This document shows positions 548 through 64,000 of a stretch of 64,000 nucleotides of DNA, in pieces. The stretch spans positions 152,514,919-152,578,918 of the forward strand of contig NC_073306.1 of the NCBI RefSeq assembly GCF_027595985.1. Reading direction: 5' to 3'. The translations under genes were made by a program, and so were the position numbers. This DNA is from Sorex araneus (Eukaryota > Chordata > Mammalia > Eulipotyphla > Soricidae). Position 1 is the stretch's first letter. Each line of letters opens with the position of its first letter. The notes under the pieces were generated by a model. The model saw only the letters and a program-made list of their open reading frames with translations, did no database searches and was not told the DNA's origin.

Positions 548-697
548 GGGCTGGAGCGATAGCACAGAGGTAGAGCGTTTGCCTTGCACATGGCCGACTG
601 GGGTTGGATTCCTTGCCCCTCTCAGAGAGCCCGGCAAGTTACCGTTACTGGTGCCCACTCAAGCAAATCGAGGAGCAACGGGATGACAGTGACAGTG
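548..697 (+). mobile_element. tRNA-headed SINE, type B (RTE-like tail), internally deleted
   Basis: The element starts GGGCTGGAGCGATAGCAC with a pol III box A (TAGCACAGAGGTAGAG) and a box B-like GGGTTGGATTCC. It ends in the RTE-like tail (TTACTGGTGCCCACTC, then GATGACAGTGACAGTG) with no poly(A). A perfect 12-bp target-site duplication, ACTTCTCTATTG, flanks it at 536-547 and 698-709. At about 150 bp it lacks roughly 90 bp of the body seen in full copies such as 27,948-28,197. The two parts join at a CG dinucleotide common to both sides. Confidence 0.9.
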
Positions 698-709
698 ACT
701 TCTCTATTG

Positions 710-7330: not shown

Positions 7331-7587
7331 TTGTTAATGCATTTTGGTTGTGAAAATTCGAAGCAAGAAGAACACTTCTGTGAATTTGGCATCAATGTTC
7401 ATTTGACATGGAGTGGTATGTATGAGTGGTTTACTCAGACTATAGATTCAGTTTGTGTGTGGGTTTTCTTACCTGCAAATTCCCTCCTTCAGTTCCCCAC
7501 TCCCCTCCTGCCTCTGTTCCAGTCTATAATTTCACTCACCTAATCAGGAGTACATAGGTTCAATAATTTATTTTTAAAATACATATC

Positions 7588-7684
7588 CGATATTCCAAAA
7601 ACAGTAACAAGTCTCACAATGGAGATGTTACTGGTCCCTGCTTGAGCAAATCAATGAGCAATGGGATATCAGTGATACAGTGAT
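7588..7684 (+). mobile_element. Type B SINE, 5'-truncated (RTE-like tail only)
   Basis: Only the 3' part is present: CCAAAAACAGTAACAAGTC, then GGAGATGTTACTGGTCCC, GAGCAAATCAATGAGCAATG, and the terminal repeat CAGTGATACAGTGAT. The head and first body half are missing, as expected for 5' truncation during target-primed reverse transcription. Confidence 0.82.
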
Positions 7685-18867: not shown

Positions 18868-18877
18868 TTTTTCAAAT

Positions 18878-19406
18878 CCGGCCGCCGGGAGCTCTGCTTG
18901 GGGTGGGGAGGGAAGCTGGAGCCCATCCCCTCTGAGGGGCCCGGGGAAGACAGCCAGGCATTGGAGCAAGAGACTCTCTGCCGAAGACCCCCGGAACCTA
19001 GCTACAGCCATGCTCGAGGCCCCTCTCCACACGTTCGGACAGGCCTCATGCATGAAGGTACCGGCAGAGGAACCCAGGTGTGTGTAATCCCATCAACGGC
19101 CAACATCCAGAGAAGACTTAAAAGCAAGCTCTCAGAAGCGATCTCTTGTAGCCTACTTCTCCCTCTGGGAGAAACTGGCAAGCTTCTGAGAGTTTCCTGC
19201 CCACATGGAACAGCCTTGCAAGCTTCCCATGGTGTATTCATATGCTAAATCCAGTAACAAGCTGGATCTCATTCCCCTGACCCTGAAAGAGCCCCCAGTG
19301 GGACATCCATTGTTGGGAGAGTTGAGAAAGGACAAAATCAGAAGTTACTGAGCCGCTCAAGAAATCAATGATTAACAGAATTTCATGATCGTGATGGTAA
19401 TCGTGA
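18878..19406 (+). mobile_element. Type C element: long RTE-tailed non-autonomous retroelement
   Basis: About 530 bp. The GC-rich 5' half begins CCGGCCGCCGGGAG. It is followed by AACGGCCAACATCCAGAG, the type B body (GGCAAGCTTCTGAGAGTTTC and a GTGTATTCATATGC motif), and a segment absent from type B (GGATCTCATTCCCCTGACCC). A decayed RTE-like tail ends in ATGATCGTGATGGTAATCGTG. There is no tRNA head and no poly(A). A 10-bp duplication with one mismatch may flank it: TTTTTCAAAT at 18,868-18,877 and TTTTTCAGAT at 19,407-19,416. It shares this architecture with 31,514-31,994. Confidence 0.75.
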
Positions 19407-19611
19407 TTTTTCAGATATGTTCTGTCTTTTATATATTGGGCACTGTTCTAGATATATAGGCTTAAAATAAAGATTATATGATATTTTGGCCTATCAATGA
19501 AAGTCAGTAAGATGATTGATATATCTCTTTTCTCCTTGAATAGCTCTAGAGAAAACTTGTCTAACTGCTCCTTGCAGCTGATTCTAACATTTACTGTCTC
19601 AGACAAATCCT

Positions 19612-19850
19612 CCAAGGACCAGAGCACAGCGGGTAGAGCATTTGCCTTGCACACAGCCGACCCGGGTTTGATTCCTCAGTCCCTCTTGGAATCTACTGAG
19701 AGTATCCTGCCCACACAGCAAAGTCTGGCAAGCTACCCATGGCATAATATTGCCAAAAACAGTAACAACAAGTCTCACAATGGAGACATCACTAGTGCCT
19801 GCTCGAGCAAAATTGATGAACAACAGGACAAGGGTGCTACGACAGTGCTA
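19612..19850 (+). mobile_element. tRNA-headed SINE, type B (RTE-like tail)
   Basis: Head GAGCACAGCGGGTAGAGC, box B GGGTTTGATTCC, body TACTGAGAGTATCCTGCCC and GGCAAGCTACCCATGGC, AACAGTAACAACAAGTCTC, and tail CACTAGTGCCTGCTCGAGC ending in CGACAGTGC. No poly(A). The first dozen bases of the head are altered or missing. Confidence 0.9.
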
Positions 19851-20482: not shown

Positions 20483-20674
20483 GGACTGGAGCGATAGCAC
20501 AGCGGGTAGGGCGTTTGCCTTGCACTCGGCCGATCCGGGTTCGATTCCCAGCATCCCATATGCTCCCCCGAGCACCACCAGGAGTAATTCCTGAGTGCAT
20601 GAGCCAGGAGTAACCCCTGTGCATCTCTGGGTGTGACTCAAAAAAGCAAAAAATAAAAGAATAAAAATAAATAA
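20483..20674 (+). mobile_element. tRNA-headed SINE, type A, young copy
   Basis: This copy has a near-ideal pol III head (TAGCACAGCGGGTAGGGCG) and box B (GGTTCGATTCCC). The full type A body follows (CCCATATGCTCCCCCGAGC, CAGGAGTAATTCCTGAGTGC, GGTGTGACTC) and an AATAAA-rich tail. The 14-bp duplication (one mismatch) is AATAAATATGCACT at 20,469-20,482 and AATAAATGTGCACT at 20,675-20,688. The good preservation suggests a recent insertion. Confidence 0.95.
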
Positions 20675-22361: not shown

Positions 22362-22592
22362 AATCACTGTCATCACTGTCATCCTGTTTTTCATTGATTT
22401 GCACAAGTGGGCACCAGTAAGGTCTCCATTGTGAGACTTGCTACTGTTTTTGGCATATTGAATACTCCATGGGTAGCTTGCCAGGCTCTGCTGTGTGGGT
22501 GAGATACTCTCGGTAGCTTGCCAGACTCTCTGAGAGGGGAGGAGGAATTGAACTCAGGTTGGCTGCATGCAAGGCAAATGCCCTATGCTTCT
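22362..22592 (-). mobile_element. tRNA-headed SINE, type B, lacking the 5' end of the head
   Basis: On the minus strand it starts within the head (TAGGGCATTTGCCTTGCATG), has box B GAGTTCAATTCC, the body (CTGGCAAGCTACCGAGAG, CAATATGCCAAAAACAGTAG), GAGACCTTACTGGTGCCC, and ends GATGACAGTGATGACAGTGA. No poly(A). The first 25-30 bases are missing. Confidence 0.9.
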
Positions 22593-22720
22593 TCTTAGAA
22601 AGATAAATTATTTCACATAATTCTTTCATTCACCATATATTTCACTCACCAAACCTGAACAAGAAACAGATTGACACTAAGAAAGGAATTTGTTTTACAG
22701 TTTGAAGAGGTCTGTGAATT

Positions 22721-22804
22721 ATGCCAAAAACAGTAACAAGTCTCACAATGGAGACATTACTGGTGCCCACTTGAGCAAATCGATGAACAATGGGATGACA
22801 GTGA
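22721..22804 (+). mobile_element. Type B SINE, strongly 5'-truncated
   Basis: Only 84 bp remain: ATGCCAAAAACAGTAACAAG, GGAGACATTACTGGTGCCC, GAGCAAATCGATGAACAATG, GATGACAG. The 8-bp TGAATTAT occurs at 22,715-22,722 and 22,805-22,812, a plausible short target-site duplication overlapping the element edge. Confidence 0.8.
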
Positions 22805-22812
22805 TGAATTAT

Positions 22813-25109: not shown

Positions 25110-25281
25110 GGCTGGAGCGATAGCACAGCAGGTAGGGCGTTTGCCTTGCACATGGCCAACCCGGGTTTGATTCCCAGCATCCCATATGGTCCCCTGAGCA
25201 CTGCCAGGAGTTAATTCCTGAGTGCATGAGCCAGGAGTAACCCTTGTGCACTGCTGGGTGTGACCTAAAAAGAAAAAAAAA
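25110..25281 (+). mobile_element. tRNA-headed SINE, type A, well preserved
   Basis: Head GGCTGGAGCGATAGCACAGC, GGTAGGGCGTTTGCCTTGC, box B GGGTTTGATTCCC, CCCATATGGTCCCCTGAGC, GCCAGGAGTAACCC and GTGTGACC plus an A-tail. It lies about 60 bp after another type A copy in the same orientation. No clear target-site duplication was found. Confidence 0.93.
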
Positions 25282-27900: not shown

Positions 27901-27947
27901 TAATAACAAGAAAGAGAAATAAAATTTTCTGGGACTGGTATGAAGAG

Positions 27948-28197
27948 TCCCAGCCCAATAGCACAGCGGGTAGGGCATTTGTTTTGCACGCAGCCGACCC
28001 GGGTTTGATTCCTCTGCTCCTCTCGGAGAGCCCGGTAAGCTACTGAGAAAATTGCGCCCACATGGCAGAGCTTGACAAGCTAACCATGGCGTATTCTATA
28101 TGCCAAAAACAGTACAAGTCTCATAATGGAGACTTTACTGGTACCCGCTCGAGCAAATCAATGAACAACGGGATGACAGTGACAGTAACAGGTATGA
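27948..28197 (+). mobile_element. tRNA-headed SINE, type B, full length, with perfect duplication
   Basis: This is the best reference for type B here, about 250 bp. Head: CCCAATAGCACAGCGGGTAG; box B GGGTTTGATTCC. Body: CTCGGAGAGCCCGGTAAGC, ATGGCGTATTCTATATGCC, AACAGTACAAGTCTC. Tail: TTTACTGGTACCCGCTCGAG, GATGACAGTGACAGTAACAG. No poly(A). A perfect 11-bp duplication GGTATGAAGAG lies at 27,937-27,947 and 28,198-28,208. Confidence 0.94.
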
Positions 28198-31483: not shown

Positions 31484-32177
31484 CTAATACTTTTTGTGTT
31501 GTGTTGTTTTGGTCAACACAACAGATCTCCAAGCCTGCTCAGATCGGGAATGGGCCTCCTCCACCAAGATCCCCCACTTTCCAGTAGCTAGGCAGTCACA
31601 TCCACAAACTGCCCCAGGCGCCATATGACTCCATAAACGGCCAAGATCCAGAAACTATAAAACAAAGCTCTGGGAAGAGAGCGACACAGTCGCCTGCCCT
31701 GTGCCTGGCTGTCTTCACCAGGGCCCCTTGGCGGGGGCGGAGGGAGGGCACGGTTTAAGTCGCCCCCCCTCCCTGAACGGCAGAGCCTGGCAAGCTCCCT
31801 GTGGTGTATTTGATATGCCAAAAATAGTAACAATGATGGGTCTCATTCCCCTGACCCTGAAAGAGCCTCCAAAGCGGCACTGTTGGGAAGGATGAATAAA
31901 GAGAGGCTGCCATAACCTCAGGGCTAGGACGAATGGAGACATTACTGACACCTGCTCGAGCAAATCGATGGGATGACAGTGATACAGTGATATAGTGTTG
32001 TTTTGGTGTGGACTGGTTTGGCAAGTAAGCCCTTGCCTGTGTCAGAGCTTACTCTGGATTCCGCACTAAGGGAGCATTCCCGGCAGTGCTCAGAGGACTA
32101 TACAGGGAGCCAGGGATTGATCTCAGGTCAGCCGTGTGCAAGCCAAATGCCCTACCTGCTCTACTATCTCTCCAGCC
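31484..32177 (-). mobile_element. tRNA-headed SINE, type A, split by a nested type C element
   Basis: The minus-strand head is at the right end (GGCTGGAGAGATAGTAGAGC, TAGGGCATTTGGCTTGCAC). Then come box B GAGATCAATCCC and the body GTCCTCTGAGCACTGCCGG. Its T-rich tail (A-rich on the element strand) is interrupted at 31,514-31,994 by another element. The SINE parts are 32,008-32,177 and the tail near 31,484-31,513. Confidence 0.8.
31514..31994 (+). mobile_element. Type C element: RTE-tailed non-autonomous retroelement, intact
   Basis: 481 bp. A GC-rich 5' half contains AACGGCCAAGATCCAGAA and GGGCCCCTTGGCGGGGGCGG. The type B body follows (CAGAGCCTGGCAAGCTCCC, TGATATGCCAAAAATAGTAA). Next is a segment missing from type B (GGTCTCATTCCCCTGACCC, TGTTGGGAAGGATGAATAAA). 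The RTE-like tail is ATGGAGACATTACTGACACC, CTCGAGCAAATCGATGGGAT, GACAGTGATACAGTGATA. A perfect 13-bp duplication GTGTTGTTTTGGT lies at 31,501-31,513 and 31,995-32,007. No tRNA head and no poly(A). It inserted into the A-tail of a type A SINE. Confidence 0.88.
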
Positions 32178-39417: not shown

Positions 39418-39591
39418 GGGCCGGAGTGATAGCACAGTGGGTAGGGCGTTTGCCTTGCACACGGCCGACCCAGGTTCGATCCCCGGCATCCCATATGGTC
39501 CCCCAAGCACTGCCAAGAGTAATTCCTGAGTGCAAAGCCAGGAGTAACCCCTGAGCATCGCTGGGTGTGACCCCCAAAAGCAAAAAAAACA
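39418..39591 (+). mobile_element. tRNA-headed SINE, type A, young copy
   Basis: Head GGGCCGGAGTGATAGCACAG, GGTAGGGCGTTTGCCTTGC, box B AGGTTCGATCCCC, CCCATATGGTCCCCCAAGC, GCCAGGAGTAACCCCTGAGC, GGTGTGACCCCC and an A-tail. The 16-bp duplication has one mismatch: CAAAATCTGAGGACTT at 39,402-39,417 and CAAAATATGAGGACTT at 39,592-39,607. Confidence 0.95.
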
Positions 39592-54035: not shown

Positions 54036-55058
54036 ATAGAAGGCTAAAACCAAGGAAGAGATTACTAGATTAAAATATTGGGGGAGGGAATGCATAATGT
54101 GAAGCCTTCGACCCCACGTCTTCCACAACTGGGTGCTGTGGCTGAAATGTGACCCTCTACCTAGAGATAAACAAGCCAACCTCAAATGAGAAAGAACTTA
54201 GAAGAAGGATATCCACCAGCTTTTACTGAGCATGTAATTATGAATTCCTGTCAAGTAATTTTTTGGCCTATTATCTTATTTGAACTTCTCCTTAGCTCTA
54301 TATCTTACAGATAAGTGAACAGCTTCTAGAAGAATGATGCTATACTCTAATTTCTTCCATTTTCCTTAGAAACTGAAGAGACTAACTGTGCACCCTGAAA
54401 CCTTTCCTATAAAGATATTAAAAGTGGAAGTTAAACATCTAAAGATTGGTGTGGTGGCAGTCTGCCTTGAACTCCTACGTTAAGGGTCTTAGAGATGTGA
54501 TACACAGTTATTTTGTGGCTAAGAGTCTTTTAAAGTGTCATATGAACCCCAAGAGTGGCAGTCAATATTCATCAATGACCTCACTCAGTGCTAGAAGAGA
54601 GACACACAAAAGGTCTGACATGGGTCCATTCTGAAAGTGGATAAGAAGCAAAGCAGTGTGTATAACAAATTAGTTAGGAAAGAGTGGCTTGACTGTGGCA
54701 ATAGCCCCAGATCCACAAAGATGAGTGCCCTGGTGACTCTGCAGGGCTATTATCCCACAGGGGTCACCACAAACTCCTGGCTGCTGGAAACACACCATCC
54801 TGTGCAGGTATCTTGCTGGATTCAGTAAGGAAGAACCGGACCTCCTGGTAATCACATAGAATTCTTTTCTGTCACCACCCCAAAGCGACATTTTCTACTT
54901 GTGCACTTCATTGGCCATAACAAATACACTGTACTTAGCGGTGAGGTTACTAAGAACATACTTCTTCATTCACCAGCAATAGAAAGAGAATTGGACATTG
55001 ATAGACTGGTCTGCCTATCGCTAGGGCTTCTAAAATTCTCAGTAAATCTCTATACAAT
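54036..55058. other. Unrecognised DNA
   Basis: 54,225-54,320 weakly resembles an ancient 'tttacagataagtgaac' repeat. Nothing else is recognised. Confidence 0.4.
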
Positions 55059-55059
55059 A

Positions 55060-55298
55060 ATGTCACTGTCATCCCATTGCTCATTAATTTGCTTGATCAG
55101 GCATCAGTAAGGTCTCCATCGTGAGACGTGTTGTTACTGTTTTTGGCATATCGAATATGCCACAGGTAGCTTGCCAGGCTCTGCTGTGCAGGCAAAATAG
55201 TCTCGGTAGCTTGCTGGGCTCTCCAAGAGGGGCAGAAGAATCGAACCCAGGTCGGCCACATGCAAGGCAAATGCCCTACCGCTGTACTATCACTCCAG

Positions 55299-55301
<3 letters not shown>
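55060..55301 (-). mobile_element. tRNA-headed SINE, type B, full length
   Basis: On the minus strand: GGGCTGGAGTGATAGTACAG, TAGGGCATTTGCCTTGCATG, box B GGGTTCGATTCT, GAGAGCCCAGCAAGCTACCG, CATATTCGATATGCC, AAACAGTAACAACACGTCTC, GAGACCTTACTGATGCC, and end GATGACAGTGACATT. It sits directly against a TA-rich array on its 5' side. Confidence 0.93.
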
Positions 55302-62392: not shown

Positions 62393-63434
62393 CTTCTCCA
62401 TCTTATGAGCACCATAAAAGGGTAAAAGTTTGTAGTGATGTTATTTCTGGTTGTACTTTCCCTGGACTTTATATAGAAACCCAAAACCGTGCGGCCGCTA
62501 CCGCGGCCGCGCGACCTAATGTCATCTTAGCATCAGCAATATGTAATGGTTCGCTTTTAATGGGTCGGACTTTTGTGGGAGATCCTAACAAGAATAGTAA
62601 GTCTGTTGCTGAAATATTGAAGGCAATCAAAACGGTAGCCATCTCTCTAGACTAAACTAAGCTATATCCCCACGCCAGCTGAGAAGAAATTTTCTTCTTT
62701 CTCGGGAAGAAACGCGGCGTGTCGTCAACTACAGTGTGATGTCCATTAAGCAAACAGACCTGGTGGCGTGGGAATGGGATATAAGGGGAAAAATTATGTA
62801 CATGGAACAGTGGGACGCTGGTGGAATCTCGAGCCGGAGCCGATACCAGCGCAAGACCTTCGGTTCCAGAAACTGCTTCCAGACACTCTACTAGTCTATC
62901 AACTAAGCCAGAGCCCCATGTCTGCTGATGACGGGAAATAACCATCCTTTTCGTTTTTTTCATTTTTTTTTTCCCTTGTCAGGCAGCGTGGCGATTACTA
63001 AACAGGCGTGAACTCGGTGGCGCGGGGCAAGGGGGAAAAAGAAAAGTTATGTAACAAACAGCGGGACTTAATATCTCTATATTCTTAGCAGTGGAGAACT
63101 ATCAAATGCCTCCTTGGCAATAGGACTGCTTTTCTTTTTTGGGGGAAACCCCAACAACGGTAGTGAGTTGTGTGTTGAAACATGGAATGTAATCGAGATA
63201 AGGCATAAATGAAGTGAAACTTATCAAGTACAAGGGTGGGGACTGGGGAGGTGGGAGGGGGCGGCAGGTATACTGGGGGGGTTGGTGATGGAGGATGGGC
63301 ACTGGTGAAGGGAAGGGTGTTTGAGAATTGTATAACCGACATAATCCTGAGAACTATGTAACCCTCCACATGGTGATTCAATAAAATTTTAAAAAAAAAT
63401 AATAAAATAAAATAAAATAAAATATTCCACTGTT

Positions 63435-63682: not shown

Positions 63683-64000
63683 CATCACTTGTATCACTTG
63701 TCATTCCGTTGCTCATCAATTTGCTCGAGTGGGCACCAGTAACGTCTCCATCCATCCCTGTCGCATGCTAGTGTAGCCCAGTGGCATCTGCTCGCTCCAG
63801 GAACACAAAGAAAGAGCCTCAAGCTGTTCATTTAGGGTCTTAGTGAAGAAATCTGACCATCTCATAGGCTGGGCGCTCTTTTGACGTCCCCGTGGAATCC
63901 AGTCAGTAACGGCTCTAGTCCAACGGTAGTCTCCAAATTGCATTACGTATTCAGCCCATCTGATTTTCGACACCTTGACAAATGAGACAGCATCCCTGAT
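63683..64000 (-). mobile_element. RTE-clade LINE, 3' end (continues past the window edge)
   Basis: The minus strand encodes the end of an RTE-type ORF2 (endonuclease/reverse transcriptase). The frame is open from the window edge. It contains SKIRWA, DYRWTRAVTDWIPRG and RWSDFFTKTLNEQLEAL, the conserved 'kWAGHv.R..d.RWT..v..W.PR...R...RW.Df' block of RTE LINEs. A tandem AAAG duplication (63,807-63,814) shifts the frame, after which a second frame carries WRRYW and EQIDEQR and reaches a stop at 63,695-63,697. The element ends just after the stop with two ACAAGTGAT repeats and no poly(A). Position 63,751 leftward is the same sequence as the tails of the type B and C elements. Confidence 0.88.
63695..64000 (-). 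pseudogene. RTE ORF2 C-terminal fragment, frameshifted
   Basis: The coding part of the RTE LINE end described above. The first frame covers roughly the last 90 codons up to the frameshift plus read-through to a stop at 63,716. A 4-bp tandem duplication explains the switch: the expected C-terminal residues continue in the other frame to 63,695. Typical G and H of the family's 'WAGH' are E and Y here (WAEY). The 5' part lies outside the window, so whether the rest is intact cannot be judged. Confidence 0.85.

Follow-up and report, generated by a model that had tools for sequence, protein, structure and literature searches.

The RTE LINE and its derivatives in the window

The window, i.e., the whole 64,000-nt stretch of Sorex araneus DNA analysed here, ends in an RTE LINE that is decayed and of which the 3' part is present, and nine shorter elements were mapped at lower positions. 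Seven were assigned to type B SINEs and two to type C. They are listed below by position.

555..700, plus strand: type B SINE with an internal deletion, 12-bp flanking duplication ACTTCTCTATTG
7584..7684, plus strand: type B SINE, 5'-truncated, only the end of the 5'UTR piece and the 3' end (blastn)
18870..19390, plus strand: type C element, i.e., head, RTE 5'UTR piece (about 19160-19312) and decayed 3' end (19340-19388)
19611..19832, plus strand: type B SINE with a diverged tail
22363..22585, minus strand: type B SINE (blastn)
22720..22805, plus strand: type B SINE, 5'-truncated (blastn)
27945..28185, plus strand: type B SINE, 11-bp flanking duplication GGTATGAAGAG
28048..28114, plus strand: RTE 5'UTR-derived module within the preceding SINE
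31514..31995, plus strand: type C element, i.e., head, RTE 5'UTR piece (31772-31924) and RTE 3' end (31927-31991)
55058..55300, minus strand: type B SINE (blastn)
63683..64000, minus strand: 3' part of the RTE LINE, i.e., C-terminal coding part and terminal repeat GACAAGTGATACAAGTGAT, running on beyond the window edge
63683..63751, minus strand: RTE 3' end common to the SINEs, i.e., end of the coding part and terminal repeat (blastn and alignment)

Two of the seven type B copies are 5'-truncated. The type C element at 31514..31995 was seen by eye to be flanked by GTGTTGTTTTGGT. Two type B copies, 22363-22585 on the minus strand and 22720-22805 on the plus strand, are oppositely oriented and separated by about 135 nt. 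Within the type B SINE at 27945..28185, two potential hairpins with different stems stand in tandem at 28019-28114, their loops (AGAGCCYGGCAAGCTA) being near-identical. On folding, the first forms its hairpin, and the second does not do so in the minimum-energy structure. The stretch of the first was also present in the 5' region of one genomic RTE copy (L050) and in several composite elements.

The C-terminal frame of the LINE aligned with nematode proteins down to their final residues. An 80-residue piece of it matched 21 proteins in a search covering proteins of about 44-140 aa, a length limit that excludes full-length RTEs, whatever the animal. An organism was named for 18 of these matches and all 18 were nematodes, of the order Strongylida, with the top match in Heligmosomoides polygyrus (E 5.5e-18). 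No protein named Bov-B was among the 21, a list confined to the same length range and thus excluding full-length proteins. The 80-aa piece had no match in Pfam. A piece of the consensus of 40 genome copies, its last two residues supplied from the tail reading, was identical to the H. polygyrus protein P0003 at 82 of 102 residues (80%). The two share their endpoint, i.e., DEQRDDK and DDQRDDR, respectively.

The LINE terminates in GAT GAC AAG TGA, i.e., Asp-Asp-Lys-stop, and the stop lies inside the repeat GACAAGTGATACAAGTGA. The 3'UTR is very short and ends in short tandem repeats, as is characteristic of the RTE clade. In longer genomic copies, the peptides GLTETRRHQ (L019) and FADDIVLI (L016) were read by eye and are putative endonuclease and reverse transcriptase motifs. 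Three-frame translation of three RTE copies gave many stops; therefore, these data give no sign of RTE activity.

RTE1_Sar was reported as a LINE of S. araneus that is also present in nine parasitic nematodes, and horizontal transfer was given as the explanation (Dunemann and Wasmuth 2019, PMC6542046). Judged by nearest relatives, the window LINE appears to fit RTE1_Sar: there, too, strongylid nematodes are nearest, with Heligmosomoides first. The word SINE is absent from the text of that paper (PMC6542046).

Downstream of the LINE, at about 63300-63420 on the minus strand, a T-rich run is followed by TTTTATTGAATCACCATGTGG. Because similar stretches also adjoin three other genomic copies (L011, L107 and L108), it looks like a separate interspersed repeat.

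Sharing of the 3' end in the window and in the genome

A sequence-only reading of the window had proposed that the LINE and the nine shorter elements form a LINE/SINE pair with a common 3' end, which would imply that the RTE enzyme mobilises the SINEs. This end was found where that reading had put it, at 63,751-63,696 on the minus strand. By blastn within the window, eight of the nine listed copies were recovered (E 2e-13 to 9e-8). The copies are named here by the start positions of that reading. Its count of 46/53 matches to the RTE tail for copy 27948 was reproduced exactly, and the other ungapped matches were 47/53 for 22721, 44/53 for 548, 22362 and 55060, and 42/53 for 7588. Its statement that all copies align without gaps holds for these six of the nine (42-47/53), but 19612 and 31514 require gaps (30/53 and 32/53 when ungapped) and 18878 is decayed. 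The last copy was missed by blastn and retains only a decayed tail at 19,340-19,388. Its local score was 21, against a best of 15 among 2,486 other 100-nt window segments on both strands.

Searching the genome with the RTE 3' query yielded 7,959 first-look candidates, and scoring of the best among them gave at least 41 matches. Forty RTE 3' ends were taken, i.e., 39 and the window's own (L009); as they were chosen for matching the window copy best, they are not a random sample. The type B tail was present at the terminus of all 40 fetched copies, the window's own included. The type B consensus was built from 24 copies, i.e., 20 from the genome and four from the window. Its tail was identical to the consensus of the 40 RTE 3' ends at 53/53 nt, from AATGGAGACG to GGGATGAC, with the caveat that the pattern used to pick the 20 genome copies fixed some of the compared positions. 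The proposed pair is thus borne out genome-wide. Genome-wide consensus tails that do not align had been named as grounds for giving it up, and all 53 nt agree.

That the segment is instead an unrelated LINE with a type B SINE fused to its end, the other ground named, or that the match is due to chance, has practically no probability left: the window with its single RTE 3' end could not discriminate, but the same ending was found in 39/39 other fetched copies, the shared stretch is the in-frame continuation of coding sequence conserved in nematode proteins and RTE coding sequence reaches the tail, so that the fusion artefact and the chance match are ruled out by the genome-wide copies. A type B tail that equals the consensus of 40 RTE ends is not the product of a single SINE fused to a single LINE.

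A further RTE sample was picked by pattern, i.e., the first 20 copies along contig C1 with one listed place skipped. By reading, 12 of the 20 belong to a second RTE subfamily, in which GAAGATCAA, exact or one change off, replaces GATGAGCAA. Over the 53 positions, the consensus of this sample has three differences from type B. As the 40-copy consensus is identical and the pattern-picked one is three off, the SINE is closest to one RTE subfamily.

The type B junction AAGTCTCACAATGGAGACGTTACTGG had 92,463 genome matches at no more than one mismatch, with 0 for the reversed control. A 30-nt RTE stretch over the same place had 620, with 0 for its control. The ratio of 92,463 to 620 is a guide only, because the patterns are of unequal length and fit unequal numbers of subfamilies. 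Besides the RTE's own, nine tails were counted in the window and 26 in the 40 RTE loci (205 kb). These counts suggest that the genome has, as a rough figure, several hundred thousand tails.

Anatomy, insertion and divergence of type B SINEs

The type B SINEs also carry sequence from the other end of the LINE. The RTE 5'UTR consensus, from eight copies, matched positions 120-184 of the type B consensus at 63/65 nt, and the RTE 3' end follows from position 192 onward. Of 12 fetched RTE 5' regions, 10 have this middle module on the sense strand ahead of the ORF start, and the remaining two (L054 and L060) are without it at that place. Since type B has 65 nt of the RTE 5'UTR plus the 3' end, it is a bipartite RTE-type SINE, i.e., tRNA-like head, RTE 5'UTR piece and RTE 3' end. 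Type C has a longer stretch of the same 5'UTR than type B and belongs with internally deleted RTE derivatives.

The head of the type B consensus has an A-box-like TAGCACAGCGGG and a B-box-like GGTTCGATTCC, which form a putative Pol III promoter. ARAGORN called no tRNA in the window, and Rfam at the gathering threshold gave nothing there. The head is not restricted to type B. SorexSINE primers are given in Table 1 of PMC8608897. The forward primer was exact at 20,543 and 25,169 and had two mismatches at 39,478; matches with one to three mismatches numbered five for the probe and eight for the reverse primer. A 55-nt tRNA-like head is common to type B and the primer-matching SINEs at 20494-20548, 25120-25174 and 39429-39483 (84-87% identity), whereas the body differs. 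With a common head on different bodies, a single head family may be in use on two mobilisation routes. The Sor SINE of shrews is called a T- SINE in PMC8466645. Type B differs from it in body, and the type B head is similar to that of the primer-matching window copies.

Flanking duplications were scored in 25 type B copies, i.e., 20 from the genome and five from the window, with re-paired controls. A score of at least 8 was reached by 11/25 copies, with duplications of 9-13 nt, against 2.6% of controls, and a score of at least 10 by 9/25 against 0.1% of re-paired controls. No duplication scoring at least 8 was found in the other 14 of the 25 copies, and one of the 11 (L113) is of low complexity. 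The tails of 20 sampled type B copies consist of TGACAG/TGATACAG units and not of poly(A).

Divergence from the consensus with CpG excluded was 9.2% for type B (18/20 copies) and 9.3% for the RTE (13/20); since exact patterns were used to pick both sets, the figures serve to compare one set with the other and do not give absolute ages. The copies dropped were two headless type B and seven RTE, i.e., six with little upstream RTE sequence or composite and one (L084) with an internal duplication.

Both-end designs of this kind are known from other hosts. Gogolevsky et al. in 2008 reportedly described Bov-B SINEs that carry both ends of an RTE-clade LINE. Their both-ends design is like that of type B; the shrew LINE resembles nematode RTE and may be distinct from Bov-B. 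In hagfish, SINE1-1_EBu and SINE2-1_EBu with RTE-2_EBu consist of a head, a piece of the RTE 5'UTR and the RTE 3' end, and their authors proposed that promoter heads were fused to internally deleted RTEs (PMC7245038). The design is like that of type B, but host, RTE and heads differ. Bird SINEs mobilised by AviRTE, an RTE also present in nematodes, have a bipartite tail of 5'UTR and 3'UTR fragments (PMC4844689). The RTE is a different one, and the shared 3' part of type B is mostly coding sequence.

Split of the terminal units and probable mobilisation of type B

The LINE and the SINE tails differ by one nucleotide. LINE units are TGACAAG/TGATACAAG and SINE units TGACAG/TGATACAG, i.e., one A fewer per SINE unit, and thus the LINE terminus in its present form is not exactly reproduced in the SINE tail. 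The 9-nt unit TGATACAAG has an in-frame TGA in every unit, and the AG form is without a stop at the position of the LINE's in-frame TGA. At the exact junction, 16,421 type B tails read GATGACAGTGA and 55 read GATGACAAGTGA (total 16,476). Behind the upstream RTE coding junction, 900 tails were AAG and 447 AG.

Sets of 20 AG and 20 AAG copies were taken, the first along C1 with two and one listed places skipped, respectively. In the AG set, 18/20 proved to be composites, with RTE 5'UTR upstream and junctions of several kinds; the remaining two (L071 and L079) are too short to classify. In the AAG set, about 98 nt or more of upstream RTE coding sequence was present in 19/20, and in L085 only about 30. 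One of these 19, L089, is a composite that has RTE 5'UTR upstream and keeps the LINE-type AAG tail, and it is a possible intermediate. Terminal units were unmixed in all parsed runs: the AAG set gave 38 AAG units and the 40 RTEs gave 70, whereas type B gave 43 AG units and the AG set 28. The pattern dictated the first unit in every set except the 40 RTEs, and later units were free. This split between LINE and non-autonomous tails is a new detail.

An autonomous AG-tailed RTE subfamily, hinted at by the 447 matches, was considered as the source of the SINE tail and rejected, because 18/20 fetched copies proved to be composites. In L061-L078, the 500 bases upstream of the tail showed composites with several different junctions between 5'UTR and 3' end, suggesting repeated internal RTE deletion or module shuffling.

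Very probably, type B arose from an internally deleted RTE joined to a tRNA-like promoter and is mobilised by the RTE enzyme via the common 3' end. The RTE transcript would have lost its interior with both ends kept, as in type C and the further composites, and a tRNA-like promoter would then have been fused onto the deleted element. LINEs of the stringent kind, including RTE, are held to recognise the 3' end of their template. The RTE reverse transcriptase would accordingly read the last ~60 nt, i.e., coding end and tandem repeat, and target-primed reverse transcription would insert type B, yielding 9-13-bp duplications and some 5'-truncated copies. Mobilisation in trans is what we infer here by analogy; the duplications, the tails without poly(A) and the similar divergence of LINE and SINE (~9%) support it. 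Pieces of both RTE ends in type B would explain how the SINE could spread.

Most mammalian SINEs are mobilised by L1, and the RTE-derived parts of type B could in principle be passengers on that route. The tRNA-like head of type B does occur in the three window copies with the published shrew SINE body. The sampled tails, however, are 20 of 20 made of RTE-like units and are not poly(A) or A-rich. L1 prefers the target site TT|AAAA, but by reading none of the 11 duplications begins at such a site, and 18/20 sampled AG-tailed composites also retain both RTE ends. Mobilisation of type B by L1 is therefore very improbable.

A path that keeps the RTE enzyme and changes the origin of the tail fares much better, and its chances are evenly balanced. 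One derived tail would be common to the non-autonomous elements, and type B would have taken it from a type C-like element by recombination or template switching, and the LINE would not have been its direct source. AG units are common to type B, the type C element 31514 and composites with several junctions, and they occur in 16,421/16,476 exactly matching type B tails. The LINE-type tail of composite L089 speaks against this path, as loss of the A may have occurred repeatedly or may postdate the formation of a first composite.

The loss of the A may have consequences for the RNA. Predicted ensemble energy was lowered by 2.9-3.2 kcal/mol with two short units and by 2.6-2.9 kcal/mol with a short and a long unit, each in three core backgrounds. 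Among six different single-base deletions of the unit in two backgrounds, only the loss of A was stabilising, and several substitutions equalled or exceeded it. Mean predicted folds were -15.9 for type B, -14.7 for the AG set and -10.9 for AAG (20 each, related copies with flank included). Against shuffles, neither tail was remarkable (z -1.4 and +0.2). Tentatively, coding and template signals may be in conflict at one sequence of the LINE: its 3' recognition sequence would be the coding end with the stop in the repeat, so that the LINE could not freely optimise the signal. The SINE would win, as the stop disappears with the A and a predicted GUUACUG/CAGUGAC stem becomes longer, which would give a better RNA template than the LINE's and help the SINE to outnumber it. 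This is a doubtful proposal, for which the folding predictions are only suggestive.

The LINE and its horizontal transfer are already published, as is the bipartite design in other hosts. The shrew pairing of LINE and SINE was not found in the open-access papers searched, and Repbase or Dfam may list it. It is a further case of RTE SINEs bearing both ends of their partner. The split between AAG, with the stop kept, and AG, with the stop lost, gives a testable handle on what an RTE reverse transcriptase reads. The mobility signals of type B, a very common shrew SINE, appear to come from a LINE that others have shown to be horizontally shared with parasitic nematodes. With the LINE shared in this way, one transfer would have seeded both the LINE and a far larger SINE family.
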